Positions 18,867 through 30,870 of a stretch of 38,921 nt of DNA are shown in pieces. This stretch comes from Halanaerobiaceae bacterium. GTDB taxonomy: Bacteria > Bacillota > Halanaerobiia > Halanaerobiales > DTU029. Under the pieces are notes generated by a model. That model saw only the letters and a program-made list of their open reading frames with translations. It was not told where the DNA came from and made no database searches. The first letter of the stretch is position 1. Each line of letters starts with the position of its first letter. Location: the NCBI GenBank assembly GCA_012518635.1, contig JAAYRT010000053.1:1-38921 (forward strand), read 5' to 3'. The translations under genes were made by a program, and so were the position numbers.

Positions 18867-18880
18867 CCTGTTTCATGGTA

Positions 18881-18978
18881 CTCATCTCTCAGGAGCAATA
18901 GTCCTGCAGGAATTAGCACCGTGCTAATGCCGGTTGCCGGGCTTCATCGGGCCAGTCCCTCAGCCAACTCTTGATAAG
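18881..18978 (-). ncRNA. SAM-I (S-box) riboswitch aptamer
   Basis: On the minus strand the leader reads CTTATCAAGAG, then GGCTGAGGGACTGGCCC, GATGAAGCCCGGCAACC, GGTGCTAATTCCTGC, and closes with GAGAGATGAG. These are the conserved S-box core segments in order. CTTATC at the 5' end can pair with GATGAG at the 3' end to close P1. A terminator follows, so this is a transcriptional OFF switch for metH in high SAM. Only about 30 bases separate it from leuB. A poor promoter-like pair (TTTAAA and TAAAAT, 18 apart) lies there, so readthrough from leuB may supply much of the transcription. Confidence 0.95.
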
Positions 18979-19008
18979 CAGTCATTTTATTTCATTTTTA
19001 TCCTGGCT

Positions 19009-24468: not shown

Positions 24469-24957
24469 TTATTCTACTACCCCTCTATTTAAGGCAACCA
24501 GGCCTGTTCTGACAATATCTATAATACCGAAATCCTTTAAGATCTCAATTAAAGCCTCTATTTTACTGGGAGTACCCGTAGCCTCGATCATGATTGTATC
24601 TGTTGAAAGATCCACAATCCTGGCCCTGAAGGTATCCACAATCTGGATTATTTCCGAACGCTGATTCCTGGAGGAGTTGACCCTGATCAAGGCCAGATCC
24701 CTATCCACAATATTGGTCCTATCCAGCTCTGTAATTTGAATTACTTCAACCAGTTTATCCAGCTGGCTTTTAATCTGTTCCAGGGTCCGGTCATCTGCGT
24801 CTACCACGATGGTCATCCGGGAATACTCAGGATTTTCTGTTTCCCCTACATTTAAGCTATTGATATTGTAGTTTCTCCTGCTGAATAATCCGGTTATCCG
24901 GCTCAGGACACCAGGCTTATTGGCAACAGTTACGGATAAAATACGTTTACTTGTCAT
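24469..24957 (-). CDS. ilvN: acetolactate synthase small (regulatory) subunit
   Basis: Regulatory subunit that binds IlvB and gives valine feedback inhibition. The 162-residue protein has an ACT domain in residues 1-80 (ILSVTVANKPGVLSRITGLF, YNINSLNVG) and a second C-terminal ACT-like half, typical of the long IlvN/IlvH type. It overlaps the end of ilvB by 11 bases, so production is coupled to the catalytic subunit. Confidence 0.96.
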   Translation of the reverse strand: MTSKRILSVTVANKPGVLSRITGLFSRRNYNINSLNVGETENPEYSRMTIVVDADDRTLEQIKSQLDKLVEVIQITELDRTNIVDRDLALIRVNSSRNQRSEIIQIVDTFRARIVDLSTDTIMIEATGTPSKIEALIEILKDFGIIDIVRTGLVALNRGVVE

Positions 24958-26629
24958 CCTGTTCCCCTCCTATCATTTCATGGTTTCCAGCTCCCGGCGG
25001 CACCATCGGCCAGACATTTTCTTCCCAGGCAACGGATACATCCACCAGGACAGGGCCGGCATATTCCAGGGCTTCATTTAATTTTTCACTGAGCTGGTTT
25101 TTATCATCGATCCGGATAGCCTTTATTCCATAGGCTTCTGCCAGCTTAAGGAAATCAGGGTTCTGCAGGATGGTAGAGGAATATCTCTTCTCATGTAATA
25201 ATTCCTGCCACTGCCTGACCATCCCCAGGGTACCATTATTAATTATCACTATCTTTACAGGCAGATTATATTCACTGATAGTGGCCAGCTCCTGTACATT
25301 CATCTGGAAACTGCCATCACCGGAAATATCAATTACCAGTTCTCCTTCCCTGCCCACCTGGGCTCCAAGGGCAGCCGGCAGGCCAAACCCCATAGTCCCC
25401 AGGCCGCCGGAAGTGATAAAATTCCGCGGGTAGGAATAATTATAATACTGGGCAGCCCACATCTGATGCTGGCCTACCTCAGTAACAACAATTGCCTTAC
25501 CTTCAGTCAATCTATTAAGTTCCTGAACAACCGCCTGTGGTTTAATCTCAGGCCCCTCATCCTTATAGGCCAGGGGATACTTCCGCTTCCATTCAGCTAT
25601 CTGGGCCAGCCATTCCTTCCTCTCTATTTCCTCAACCACCGGTAATAACTTGCTCAAAACTTCCTTTGCATCTCCTACCAGGGAGATAAAGGTTTCAACA
25701 TTTTTATTGATCTCCGCCGGGTCAATATCAATATGGACTACCTTTGCTTTCGGGGCAAAAGCATCCAGCCTGCCAGTTACACGGTCATCAAAGCGGACAC
25801 CGACACCGATCAACAAATCTGCTTCACAAAGGGCATAATTGGCATATCTGGTCCCATGCATACCAGGCATACCCAGTGACAATTCATCTTCAATAGGATA
25901 GGCACCCAGACCCATCAAAGAAGTAGTGACAGGAATCCTTGCCTTCCTGGCCAGTTCCCTCAGCACCTCTGCCGCACCGGATGTAACCACCCCGCCCCCG
26001 GCAAAGATTACAGGCCTTTTAGCACTATTGATCACCTCAGCTGCCCTTTCCAATCTATCCCCATTTAAGGTCAGGTCTGGGTCATAACCCGGCAAATCCA
26101 CTGTCTCCGGATACTCAAATTCCATCCGGGCACCCAGTACGTCGATAGGCATATCAACCAGAACCGGTCCCGGCCGGCCGGTCCGGGCAATATAAAAGGC
26201 TTCCTTAATCGTCCGGGCAAGGTCCTTAATATCAGTTACCAGAAAATTATGTTTTGTTACGGGCATGGTAATACCCCTTATATCCGCTTCCTGAAAGGCA
26301 TCTGTACCAATAGACTTAGTATCTACCTGTCCCGTAAAGGCCACCACAGGGACAGAATCCATATAGGCTGTAGCCAGACCGGTAACCAGGTTAGTGGCTC
26401 CCGGCCCGGAAGTGGCCAGACAGACTCCTACCTTACCGGTACTCCTGGCATAGCCATCAGCTGCATGGGCAGCTGCCTGTTCATGTCTCACCAGGATATG
26501 TTTAAAGGGATTATCATAAAGAAGGTTATAGATGGGGATATTTTTTCCCCCTGGATAACCGAAAATAACTTCTACCTGCTCTCTCTTTAAGGACTCAATA
26601 AAAATCTCCGCCCCGGTTAACTTACTCAT
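24947..26629 (-). CDS. ilvB: acetolactate synthase large (catalytic) subunit
   Basis: Thiamine-diphosphate enzyme that makes acetolactate from two pyruvates, or acetohydroxybutyrate from pyruvate and 2-oxobutyrate. The 560-residue protein shows the catalytic Glu region VRHEQAAAHAADGYAR, the FAD-binding middle domain, and the ThDP-Mg motif starting GDGSFQMNVQELATI and ending INN. Anabolic type, since ilvN follows. Start ATG has GAGGTG upstream. The 183-base gap before it contains a terminator with a competing fold. Confidence 0.97.
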   Translation of the reverse strand: MSKLTGAEIFIESLKREQVEVIFGYPGGKNIPIYNLLYDNPFKHILVRHEQAAAHAADGYARSTGKVGVCLATSGPGATNLVTGLATAYMDSVPVVAFTGQVDTKSIGTDAFQEADIRGITMPVTKHNFLVTDIKDLARTIKEAFYIARTGRPGPVLVDMPIDVLGARMEFEYPETVDLPGYDPDLTLNGDRLERAAEVINSAKRPVIFAGGGVVTSGAAEVLRELARKARIPVTTSLMGLGAYPIEDELSLGMPGMHGTRYANYALCEADLLIGVGVRFDDRVTGRLDAFAPKAKVVHIDIDPAEINKNVETFISLVGDAKEVLSKLLPVVEEIERKEWLAQIAEWKRKYPLAYKDEGPEIKPQAVVQELNRLTEGKAIVVTEVGQHQMWAAQYYNYSYPRNFITSGGLGTMGFGLPAALGAQVGREGELVIDISGDGSFQMNVQELATISEYNLPVKIVIINNGTLGMVRQWQELLHEKRYSSTILQNPDFLKLAEAYGIKAIRIDDKNQLSEKLNEALEYAGPVLVDVSVAWEENVWPMVPPGAGNHEMIGGEQDDK

Positions 26630-26692
26630 CTTATCACCTCATTCTACTTATTAAGGGTAAATTTTTTACAAAATGTGCCTTTTTATGCGAAT

Positions 26693-26721
26693 AAAAAACC
26701 CCGGGTTCAGTAAGCCCAGGG
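26693..26721 (-). terminator. internal terminator between ilvD and ilvB
   Basis: On the minus strand, CCCTGGG pairs with CCCGGGG (one G-U pair) around a 9-base loop and is followed by six T. It sits inside what otherwise looks like one operon, so it probably attenuates rather than ends transcription. Confidence 0.8.
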
Positions 26722-26753
26722 TACGTTAAACTGATGGAGTACCACTCCACCTG
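26715..26753 (-). promoter_or_regulatory. T-box-like antiterminator fold without Stem I, before ilvB
   Basis: Read on the minus strand: CAGG, a 7-base bulge UGGAGUG, GUAC, a 14-base loop, GUAC, CCUG. The two helices and the 7-base bulge starting with UGGN copy the layout of a T-box antiterminator. The final CCUG is also the 5' side of the terminator, so the two folds exclude each other. No Stem I with a specifier loop fits in the 183-base gap, so this may be a remnant or chance. A competing local hairpin (TGGAGT/ACTCCA) is also possible. Confidence 0.4.
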
Positions 26754-26812
26754 TTTTATTCAAAAGCACACCCTACTCACTACTCCCTGCTCCATCTGCT
26801 TTATATTCTATT

Positions 26813-28468
26813 CTATTTTACAATAGCACCTTTATCGGCTGATAGGACATTCCTAGCATATCTCTCCAGATAGCCTGTCTTCTTTACTGCTTCCGGTTCA
26901 TAATTCCTCAGTCTTTCAGCCAGCTCTTCTCCACTGATTTTCAGTTCCAGTTTTCTCTCCGGTATATTTATATATATTATGTCTCCTTCTTCGATTATGC
27001 CAATAGAACCTCCTGCCACTGCTTCAGGAGAAACATGCCCGATGGCAGCTCCTCTGGTTGCGCCGGAAAAACGTCCATCAGTAATCAGAGCTACACTATC
27101 ATCCAGCCCCATACCCATCAGGGTAGCAGTAGGTGCCAGCATCTCCCTCATTCCGGGTCCTCCCCGGGGTCCTTCATGGGTGATAACCACCACATCACCA
27201 GGTTTAATCTTGCCGGCAGAAATAGCCTCTATGGCAGCTTCCTCACCTCTAAAAACCCGGGCCGGGCCTTCATGGACCAGCATCTCCTCTGCAACAGCTG
27301 CCTGTTTTACCACAGCTCCGTCAGGGGCTATATTGCCGGTAAGAACAGCTAAACCCCCTTCCTGATGATAGGGATTATCCAGCGGCCTGATTACATTATA
27401 ATCAATATCCCTGACTTCCTGCAAGTTTTCCCCGATTGTTTTACCTGTTACTGTCAACTCATCCAGGTGCAGCAGATCTCCTTCTGCCAGTATCTTCATA
27501 ACTCCCTGTATGCCACCGGCATAATACAGGTCTTCAATATGGTGTTCTCCCGCCGGTGCCAGGCTGCAAATATGGGGAACCCGGGTACTCAATTTATTGA
27601 TCAGCTGCAAATCAAAGTCCAGGCCTGCCTCATGGACAATGGCCGGTAAATGCAGAACAGTATTGGTCGAACAACCCAGGGCCATATCGAGAGTCAGGGC
27701 ATTCTCGATAGTCTTTTCTGTAAAGATATCCAGGGGCCGGATATCTTTATTGACCAGTTCCATAATCTTCCGTCCAGTCTGCCTGGCCAGGCGCTTTCTT
27801 TCGGCGAAAACTGCCGGTATAGTACCATTACCTGGTAAAGCCAGGCCCATAACTTCTGTAAGACAGTTCATGGAGTTAGCAGTAAACATTCCGGAACAGG
27901 AGCCGACTCCCGGACAGGCCTGTATTTCCAGTTCCCTCAATTCTTCCTCTGTCATCTTTCCTGCATTAACAGCCCCCACTGCCTCAAACATATTCTGCAG
28001 GTTCAGGGCCTGCCCTTTATGCCTGCCGGCCAGCATGGGGCCGCCGCTGACAATTATAGCAGGAATATTCAACCTCAGGGCTGCCATAATCATGCCCGGT
28101 ACAATCTTATCACAATTGGGTATCAAAACCAGACCGTCAAACTGATGGGCCCTGGCCATGATTTCAATGGAATCAGCAATCAACTCACGGCTGGCCAGGG
28201 AATATCTCATTCCCTCATGGCCCATGGCAATACCATCACAGACACCAATGGTGGAAAAAGCCACCGGTGTACCGCCAGCACTATAGATACCATTCTTCAC
28301 TTCTTCACAAATCTGGTCCAGATGTTTATGACCAGGTATAATATCATTGGCTGCATTGGCAATTCCGATAATCGGCTTCTTTATATCCTCTTCATCCAGC
28401 CCGAGGGCATATAGCAAGGAACGATGGGGAGCCCTGCTCACTCCTTTTTTTATCCGATCACTATTCAT
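26813..28468 (-). CDS. ilvD: dihydroxy-acid dehydratase
   Basis: Iron-sulfur enzyme that dehydrates 2,3-dihydroxy acids to 2-oxo acids, the shared step before valine, isoleucine and the leucine branch. The 551-residue protein has the cluster-ligand regions [22 protein letters not shown] and [18 protein letters not shown], and [10 protein letters not shown]-like ending motifs ([15 protein letters not shown]). I chose the ATG at 28466-28468, which follows GGGAGG at 5 bases and gives the usual opening MNSDRIKKG. The frame also allows an ATG 18 bases earlier with a weaker site. It follows hisC by about 60 bases. Confidence 0.96.
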
Positions 28469-28527
28469 GATTACCTCCCTACTCATACTTCTACTCTTCT
28501 CCCTTTATTTAATAAACTATTATAATA

Positions 28528-29628
28528 TCAGCCCTTTATTTTGTCAATACAATCCAGGAATATTTTATTCTCTTCCATGGTACCAATGGTCAGGCGGATA
28601 TGCTCCGGATAGCCCAGCGGGTCTCCCGGCCTGATGATAACCCCCATCTTTAAGAGTTCATCAAATAGTTTCAGGGCATCTGTCCTGACATTTATCAAGA
28701 TAAAGTTGGCCTCTGTCGGCACATATCCGTAACCCCTACTTTCCAGCTCCCTGTACAGGAATTCCTTACCTTCTTCATTAAGCTTTATGGTCCTCTCCAG
28801 AAACTCCTCATCTTCCAGGGCCGCCAGTGCTGCTGCCTGGGCAAGCCTGTTGACATTAAAGGGGTCAAGGGCCTTGGCCAGCAAAGCCACTATTGCCGGA
28901 TCAGCAAATAAATAGCCCAGGCGGAGTCCGGCCAGGCCATAAGCCTTGGAGAAGGTCCGCAGGCCGATAACCGGATAACCCTGCTTTATATATTGGATAA
29001 TATCAGGATAATCCTCATCCTGTACATATTCATAATAGGCCTCATCTACGACCACCAGTATATTCTCCGGTACCCGGTCCAGAAATTCTTTCAATTCTCC
29101 TTCCCTGATAATGGTACCGGCAGGATTATGGGGGCTGGTCAGGAAAATCATCTTGGTCTTATCTGTTATTTCCGCCAGTATACCCTCCAGATCCTGGTGG
29201 TAGTCCTTCATCTTCACACTTTTCAATTCTGCTCCCATTAAATTGGCCACAAAGATATACTCTACAAAGGTAGGATCAGAAACAATCACCTCATCACCTT
29301 TATTGATAAAGGTCTCACCGATAACCTTCAGGAGGCCGTCTGAACCATTACCGAATAAAAGCATATCTTCACTGATTGCCAGTTTCCGGGCCAGGGCCTC
29401 TTTCAACAATCTGGAATCACTATCAGGATAACGATTGAGGTCAGCCAGTTCCTTCTCGATGGCCTCTCTCACCTTTTCGGAAAGGGGAAGGGGATTCTCA
29501 TTTGAAGCTAGTTTAATTACCCTCTCCAGGCCATATTCCTCCTGGACCTCCTCAATGGGTTTCCCGGGTATATAGGGCTTTAAGGTCCCAATCTCTTCTC
29601 TCATCAACTCAACATACTTACTACTCAT
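28528..29628 (-). CDS. hisC: histidinol-phosphate aminotransferase family enzyme
   Basis: PLP-dependent class I/II aminotransferase of the HisC family, 366 residues. Visible features are ASNENPL near the N-terminus, FGNGSDGLL (about 92-100) for cofactor phosphate, SPHNPAG (165-171), VVDEAYYEY and the Schiff-base lysine K228 in FSKAYGLAGLRLGY. No other his genes are nearby. It sits directly between pheA and ilvD, so it may well act on phenylpyruvate or other 2-oxo acids; HisC-family enzymes with aromatic activity are known. The physiological substrate is therefore uncertain. Start ATG has GAAGGGAG upstream. Confidence 0.9.
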   Translation of the reverse strand: MSSKYVELMREEIGTLKPYIPGKPIEEVQEEYGLERVIKLASNENPLPLSEKVREAIEKELADLNRYPDSDSRLLKEALARKLAISEDMLLFGNGSDGLLKVIGETFINKGDEVIVSDPTFVEYIFVANLMGAELKSVKMKDYHQDLEGILAEITDKTKMIFLTSPHNPAGTIIREGELKEFLDRVPENILVVVDEAYYEYVQDEDYPDIIQYIKQGYPVIGLRTFSKAYGLAGLRLGYLFADPAIVALLAKALDPFNVNRLAQAAALAALEDEEFLERTIKLNEEGKEFLYRELESRGYGYVPTEANFILINVRTDALKLFDELLKMGVIIRPGDPLGYPEHIRLTIGTMEENKIFLDCIDKIKG

Positions 29629-30599: not shown

Positions 30600-30630
30600 C
30601 AAAAAAACCTGTTCCATAAAGGAACAGGTT
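30600..30630 (-). terminator. T-box-controlled terminator before pheA
   Basis: AACCTGTTCC and GGAACAGGTT form a perfect 10-bp stem with a 5-base loop, followed on the minus strand by a T run. Its 5' arm and loop can instead pair with the T-box sequence just upstream, giving the antiterminator. Confidence 0.92.
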
Positions 30631-30870
30631 TTACCTGCTATACCATCCTTTAAGCTACATAATAGAAGTCTCTGTACTGACAAAAGAAAAGACTACATTA
30701 TATAACCTGTCAGAAATAACGGTTGACTTCCGTCAGGGCCTACTCAAAATTCAGTCCTGCAACTCCCAGGGGAACTTCACCCAAATCTTTCTGCTGACCT
30801 TCCACCATCATCAGCTCGCTATAAGAAAGGTGTTTAGATTACTTTCCCTGTTCATCGTCATTATGCATAT
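30600..30870 (-). ncRNA. T-box leader, probably phenylalanine-responsive, for pheA
   Basis: On the minus strand the leader carries GATGAACAGGGAAAGTA, then AGCGAGCTGATGATGGTGGAAG (read in two parts), then TGAATTTTGAGTAGG before a CGG...CCGTTA closing stem: the ordered Stem I landmarks of T-boxes. The specifier region contains UUU, a Phe codon, which matches pheA. Downstream, AAAGGA, bulge UGGUAUA, GCAGG, loop, CCUGU, UCCUUU make a textbook antiterminator. UGGU would pair with an ACCA tRNA end. Uncharged tRNA-Phe binding should permit readthrough into pheA and beyond. This fills the 374-base gap between the LacI gene and pheA. Confidence 0.93.

Follow-up and report, generated by a model that had tools for sequence, protein, structure and literature searches.

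The window analyzed here, the whole 38,921-nt stretch of Halanaerobiaceae DNA, carries on its minus strand a T-box, pheA, an aminotransferase gene, ilvD, a 183-nt gap (26630–26812), ilvB, ilvN, ilvC, leuA, leuC, leuD, and leuB, in that order. The aminotransferase, ilvD, and ilvB genes were identified by Pfam, and the remaining operon genes are named from their translations. The T-box before pheA (30617–30864, minus strand; 118.1 bits with Rfam) is the only one in the window. Directly before ilvD lies a sigma-70-type promoter, TTGACA-17-TATAAT (28519–28547, minus strand), which matches the consensus at 12 of 12 positions with a 17-nt spacer and leaves almost no ilvD leader, so that an attenuator in the gap would spare ilvD. 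A SAM riboswitch (18879–18980, minus strand; 83.2 bits) precedes a methionine-synthase-like gene, again named from its translation. The features of the gap and its two flanking genes are as follows.

26813–28486, minus strand: ilvD, the gene upstream of the element (Pfam ILVD_EDD_N and ILV_EDD_C)
26763–26802, minus strand: hairpin P1, with the conserved motif in its loop and arms AAAGCA (26802–26797) and UGCUUU (26768–26763); evidence from covariation, model match at 26759–26806
26770–26784, minus strand: conserved loop motif AGUAGUGAGUAGGGU, the repeat-like tract, which together with GGG (26787–26785) is the predicted antiterminator 5′ strand; present at all 19 loci of the ilvB group
26733–26751, minus strand: spacer hairpin P2, GGUGGAGU-GGU-ACUCCAUC, which contains UGGA; eight pairs in three of three congeners, one G-C to A-U change
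26703–26722, minus strand: predicted antiterminator 3′ strand, with ACCCU (26722–26718), UUACU (26713–26709), and CCC (26705–26703) complementary to the motif region
26693–26722, minus strand: intrinsic terminator, ACCCUGGG (26722–26715) and CCCGGGGU (26705–26698) plus a U tract; predicted fold of −14.6 kcal/mol
24947–26629, minus strand: ilvB, the first gene 3′ of the element (Pfam TPP_enzyme_N, _M, and _C); orthologs found in relatives

Because the predicted fold of the gap beats shuffled sequences only modestly (z of −2.32; 4 of 200 shuffles equally good), the case made here is built on comparison and not on single-sequence stability.

A conserved motif upstream of ilvB

The gap is retained in two congeners (G001 and G002), and the best-kept block of the resulting alignment reads GGGAGUAGUGAG(U/A)AGGGU; none of 38 other relatives matched when queried with the gap sequence. 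This block is the tract described in the first-pass annotation as the repeat-like CTACTCACTACTCCC, which does exist and whose form on the transcribed strand is GGGAGUAGUGAGUAG. A search for ilvB in 38 genomes of the order Halanaerobiales returned matches in 29. The best-scoring ilvB group comprises 19 loci (L011–L013 and L020–L035, from 19 genomes), and in all of them AGUAGU(N)NAGNAGGG stands upstream of ilvB, once per locus and in constant orientation; the search pattern was derived from these same leaders and widened once to admit L030, which has AGCAG instead of AGUAG. Two of these genomes (G003 and G004) have an aminotransferase gene instead of ilvD upstream of ilvB, and the element is still present.

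The motif is absent from all 11 of the other ilvB-like loci of the order that were fetched (L036–L046, with 86 nt upstream in L039, 361 nt in L040, and a weak partial match in L045). It has a single match in the window. Among control loci from the ilvB scan, of which there are at least 80, mainly distant (one, L089, is an order member with only 89 nt upstream), there are two matches in 1,006,990 strand-bases, counted over the 80 loci among the matches listed.

Hairpin P1 and the apparent T-box

The motif occupies the loop of hairpin P1. In an alignment of 14 of the 19 leaders, 94.8% of 97 cells of the P1 stem are paired, compared with at most 52.6% for slid versions of the stem, and four of seven pairs have changes on both sides; covariation is also seen within the genus. 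With the sequences trimmed to the stem, none of 500 shuffles attains the pairing percentage or the covariation score, but 84 of 500 attain the count of pairs changed on both sides. The five leaders left out are L028 and L029, which share the core of L027, L031 and L034, which are near-identical to others, and L023, in which the stem is unclear.

A covariance model built from the same 14 leaders finds 20 places in 19 of the 38 genomes of the order at an E value of 0.1, most of these matches being expected by construction. The 18 strong matches (E of 0.014 or better) all lie before ilvB, with a single one in each of 18 of the 38 genomes; the two weak ones, in G005 (E of 0.053) and G007 (E of 0.08), fall within reading frames. 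Across 398 genomes of the phylum, searched with stricter filters at an E value of 0.01, four have a match, each at ilvB in this order. The 80 control loci among the matches listed contain none up to an E value of 1. Further weak matches (E of 0.085 to 0.67) were set aside, that in L162 as lying inside an open reading frame and the others as chance. One leader, that of G012, has no clear P1 and scores an E of 0.78, poorer than a chance match in that genome; it is counted as a member on the basis of its motif and position.

At gathering score, Rfam 15 places no family at the window element or at any of the 17 other element loci searched, which are all of the remaining 18 but L031. A relaxed search of six loci put ncr1015 over the L023 leader (30.5 bits, with a gathering score of 60) and Spot_42 in the linker of L027.

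The first-pass annotation had described in the gap a fold laid out like a T-box antiterminator, opposed by a terminator. The terminator is there, as ACCCUGGG-CUUACUGAA-CCCGGGGU followed by UUUUU (26722–26693, minus strand). The two short helices around UGGAGUG can also be drawn in the window, as CAGG[UGGAGUG]GUAC...GUACCCUG (26753–26717, minus strand), but both congeners break them: the eight pairs of the layout form in 16 of 24 cells of the three-congener alignment, with all eight failures in those two congeners and no two-sided change, while the terminator is kept. This is the outcome that the first-pass annotation itself had named as refuting its T-box reading. UGGA instead sits in an arm of hairpin P2, which has 8 bp paired in three of three congeners around a loop that differs in each (GGU, UGG, and CUA). 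A UGGA bulge would suit a tRNA ending in UCCA; tRNAs for Leu, Ile, and Val usually end in ACCA and need UGGU.

An Rfam covariance search of the gap likewise yields no T-box at gathering score and none among four matches up to an E value of 10; those four (SNORD112, EF3314_EF3315, SpF41_sRNA, and NsiR1) are far under gathering and were discarded. The element loci of 17 relatives have no T-box at gathering score either. The relatives G004 and G027 do carry a T-box ahead of another ilvB copy, as might be expected if the gap held a scar. However, the G004 copy that best matches the window ilvB carries the new element, and it is the second ilvB of that genome that is preceded by the T-box (90.1 bits, with a gathering score of 93). 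This distribution suggests that the element replaces a T-box and is not its debris.

Considered together, these data leave a T-box scar or minimal T-box hardly credible, since the helices break in congeners and the conserved antiterminator strand stands elsewhere in the gap, inside the repeat-like tract. Of the options raised for this gap, a chance origin is unlikely and a minimal attenuator is the one that the comparison supports. The element resembles the T-box riboswitch (RF00230) in placing a terminator and an antiterminator ahead of an amino-acid operon, and differs from it in having no T-box match, Stem I, or conserved UGGN bulge. The gap holds a conserved leader RNA, to all appearances not a T-box remnant, in which P1, an antiterminator, and the terminator appear to compete.

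Predicted pairing between the motif and the terminator

The terminator forms in 21 of 24 cells of the congener alignment; the three failures reflect a displacement of one column in G001, which by itself has a complete stem. A terminator hairpin is predicted in all 19 leaders, at −12.0 to −19.7 kcal/mol. In the genus, the motif region is complementary to the terminator 5′ strand and loop and to the first bases of the 3′ strand, with 39 of 39 cells paired over the three congeners; these pairs are all invariant and therefore uninformative on covariation. The window duplex between motif and terminator is predicted at −22.3 kcal/mol, with 13 of 500 motif shuffles equally good. Across families f1 and f6 (eight leaders), the duplex energy ranges from −13.7 to −24.4 kcal/mol and is matched by 0 to 31 of 500 motif shuffles.

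The partner strands vary between lineages while their complementarity is retained. In G007, GGAAGUAGU..AGGG faces CCCU..ACUGCUUCC, and in G012, GUAGUU..AGGGU faces ACCCU..AACUAC. We permuted the partners among six lineages, taking one genus member at a time with the five other lineages; of the 720 orders, 7, 8, or 12 (the true one counted) do as well as the true pairing or better. This amounts to a moderate signal of coevolution in the compared sequences, and it comes mainly from G007, G012, and G003, because in G006 and G004 the leader's own terminator strand is not the best partner.

Free folds of transcripts cut before completion of the terminator contain AGGG/CCCU, with three or four pairs, in 14 of 19 leaders. 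The helix is missing in G006, G003, G028, G023, and G037; in G028 and G023 the two strands are AGAG/CCUU and do not pair in this register. When the pairs are enforced, with all constraints retained in the folds, the antiterminator is predicted to be more stable than P1 in cut transcripts of 16 of 19 leaders (the exceptions being G003, G028, and G023), and P1 with the terminator at least as stable as the antiterminator in full transcripts of 17 of 19 (the exceptions being G002 and G007). This balance is a thermodynamic prediction, and is as expected of a leader that would read through unless P1 is held.

The direct duplex is weaker in the 11 leaders of family f3, at −7.7 to −12.3 kcal/mol, and does not stand out from shuffles, of which 118 to 433 of 500 are equally good (29 in G020). 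The linker between motif and terminator in this family is 170–250 nt long and not conserved. Free folds of the cut transcripts contain AGGG/CCCU in 8 of 11 leaders, and in all 11 they pair a flank, AUUUAAGAA or a variant of it, with a block around CUUAGA before the terminator. This flank overlaps the 3′ arm of P1, so that P1 and the flank fold are mutually exclusive. In f3, the modeled antiterminator would depend on AGGG/CCCU together with the helix AUUUAAGAA/UUCUUAGAU across the linker. An antiterminator that uses the terminator 5′ strand is thus predicted overall, with complementarity conserved in f1 and f6 and weaker in f3.

The persistence of the terminator by itself, and the unconserved f3 linker between motif and terminator, would also fit a constitutive or weak intergenic terminator that just lowers ilvB relative to ilvD, with the motif serving separately as a processing site, small-RNA target, or DNA operator. 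We regard this as improbable: the stem around the motif covaries, the orientation of the motif before ilvB does not change, and its complementarity to the terminator exceeds that of shuffles in f1 and f6. The motif is also not palindromic.

A proposed attenuator and its candidate effectors

We propose that the element acts in cis to attenuate transcription of the ilvB-ilvN-ilvC-leu segment of the operon and that a putative effector which holds P1 causes termination, and we give this reading a probability of about 0.6. Once RNA polymerase leaves ilvD, the leader would have two alternative folds. With P1 closed over its NAG-rich motif, the terminator would form and ilvB and the later genes would go untranscribed; with P1 open, the motif would pair with the terminator 5′ strand as an antiterminator, and transcription would continue. 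Binding of an effector to the P1 loop, most likely under a plentiful supply of branched-chain amino acids, would shift the balance to termination. Sequence comparison supports the conserved motif, the covarying P1, the kept complementarity, the terminator, and the fixed place before ilvB; termination in cells, the existence and identity of an effector, and the sign of control are what we infer.

The proposed arrangement resembles the trp leader with TRAP and the pyr leaders with PyrR in Bacillus subtilis, where a factor bound upstream blocks the antiterminator strand and the terminator forms. The P1 loops of the 19 leaders contain four to eight NAG triplets. TRAP genes (PF02081) occur in 32 of 38 genomes, including all 19 that bear the element, and are missing in the five genomes of family f7 and in G029. 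TRAP reads U/GAG repeats, of which 11 are used, as stated in the passages on it in PMC7430163. Within the P1 loop, the longest NAG run at the TRAP spacing of 2–3 nt is three, reached in 9 of 19 leaders, which sets the loop apart from a TRAP target with about 11 repeats. The element further differs from the trp system in that its triplets lie in a hairpin loop and its factor is putative.

NAG repeats also recall the hut leader of Bacillus subtilis and its protein HutP, and HutP-family genes are found throughout the order, in 38 of 38 genomes. HutP reads NAG repeats at a spacing of 4 nt. Three NAG triplets at this spacing form one cluster in just 5 of 19 P1 loops and in 0 of 11 of family f3, and HutP prevents termination in the hut leader, the opposite sign to that proposed here. 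The protein binds clusters of three NAG repeats, according to the HutP passages of PMC7430163. A HutP type of ∼160 amino acids, sorted by match range and length, is present in 25 of 38 genomes: 18 of 19 with the element (the incomplete G000 lacks it) and 7 of 19 without. Relatedness explains this co-occurrence equally well. The neighborhoods of HutP genes at three loci have no link to ilv. A HutP type of 157–158 amino acids adjoins an adenosyltransferase-like gene in G002 and G012; at L051 (3976–4449, plus strand), an unstudied stand-alone HutP-family protein has such a gene adjacent. In the window's genome, an unstudied CBS-HutP fusion lies between gltX and ispF-like genes, near cysS (L053, 5414–6202, minus strand).

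A gene for CodY is present in 35 of 38 genomes. With up to three mismatches to the CodY consensus allowed, neither the gap nor the ilvD promoter contains a CodY-like box. Visual inspection of the alignment shows CodY-like AATTTTCAGNNNATT stretches in most f3 leaders, in the linker before ilvB (L027–L034).

It is also possible, though unlikely, that P1 is itself a small-molecule aptamer, making the element an order-specific riboswitch class for a branched-chain amino acid or a precursor. The ligand-bound P1 loop would then retain the antiterminator strand and turn ilvB off.

A leader peptide would be another route to amino-acid sensing: a short ORF (MEQGVVSRVCF in the window) would span the motif and sense charged tRNA through its Val-Val codons. 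In one frame the motif does read Val-Val (GUA-GUN), and 6 of 19 leaders, among them that of the window, have an open ORF across it; moreover, uORFs account for ilvB-II and perhaps for other ilvB motifs, as described in the relevant part of PMC10272879. However, a walk of up to 60 nt upstream finds any one frame open across the motif in at most 6 of the 19 leaders, and the congener G001 has two stops in the same frame directly before it. Short ORFs led by a Shine-Dalgarno sequence occur in three of 19 leaders and are mutually unlike, and no conserved short ORF rich in end-product codons was found in the 19. A ribosome stalled at the Val codons would, moreover, be expected to cover the antiterminator strand and favor termination in starvation, the wrong sign. 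We therefore hold a leader-peptide attenuator to be decidedly unlikely. HutP, TRAP, a metabolite, and a leader peptide are thus candidates of differing weight, and no single protein is indicated.

Published leader motifs ahead of ilvB or ilvD come from Corynebacterium, Leptospira, and Veillonella, with ilvB-OMG occurring in several phyla; ilvB-II (Corynebacterium), ilvB (Leptospira), and ilvB-OMG carry, or mostly carry, the start and stop codons of a uORF (sections of PMC10272879, PMC11109978, and PMC8632094 on these motifs). These three, the ilvD motif of Veillonella, and the ppGpp riboswitch are like the element in being leader RNAs ahead of ilvB or ilvD. The three ilvB motifs differ from it in having a uORF, which is not conserved here, a distinction drawn from their published descriptions. 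The string “Halanaerob” is absent from the main text of PMC10272879, PMC11109978, and PMC8632094, and a term search of PMC2965389 gave no mention of ilv or Halanaerobium; the part of PMC9413887 on histidine genes names Halanaerobiales. The best-ranked matches of our literature search, which covered few subscription papers, contain no earlier description of the element.

The window's genome (73% complete) has ten T-box matches, eight of them over the cut-off, which precede leuS, valS, serS, thrS, pheA, pheS, ileS, cysS, tyrS, and proB (names from translations). Its ilv-leu operon has no T-box at ilvB, although leuS, valS, and ileS of the same genome have them, and the element seems to fill, by a different route, the role that a T-box has elsewhere. 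The leader probably switches branched-chain amino acid synthesis on and off, and it offers a concrete candidate for control of this pathway in Halanaerobiales. If a metabolite reads the P1 loop, the element would be a new riboswitch class; if a protein of the HutP or TRAP family does so, this would be a new role for proteins common in the order. The gap also illustrates how a repeat tract that looks like chance can be a conserved core, and a neighboring T-box look-alike accidental.
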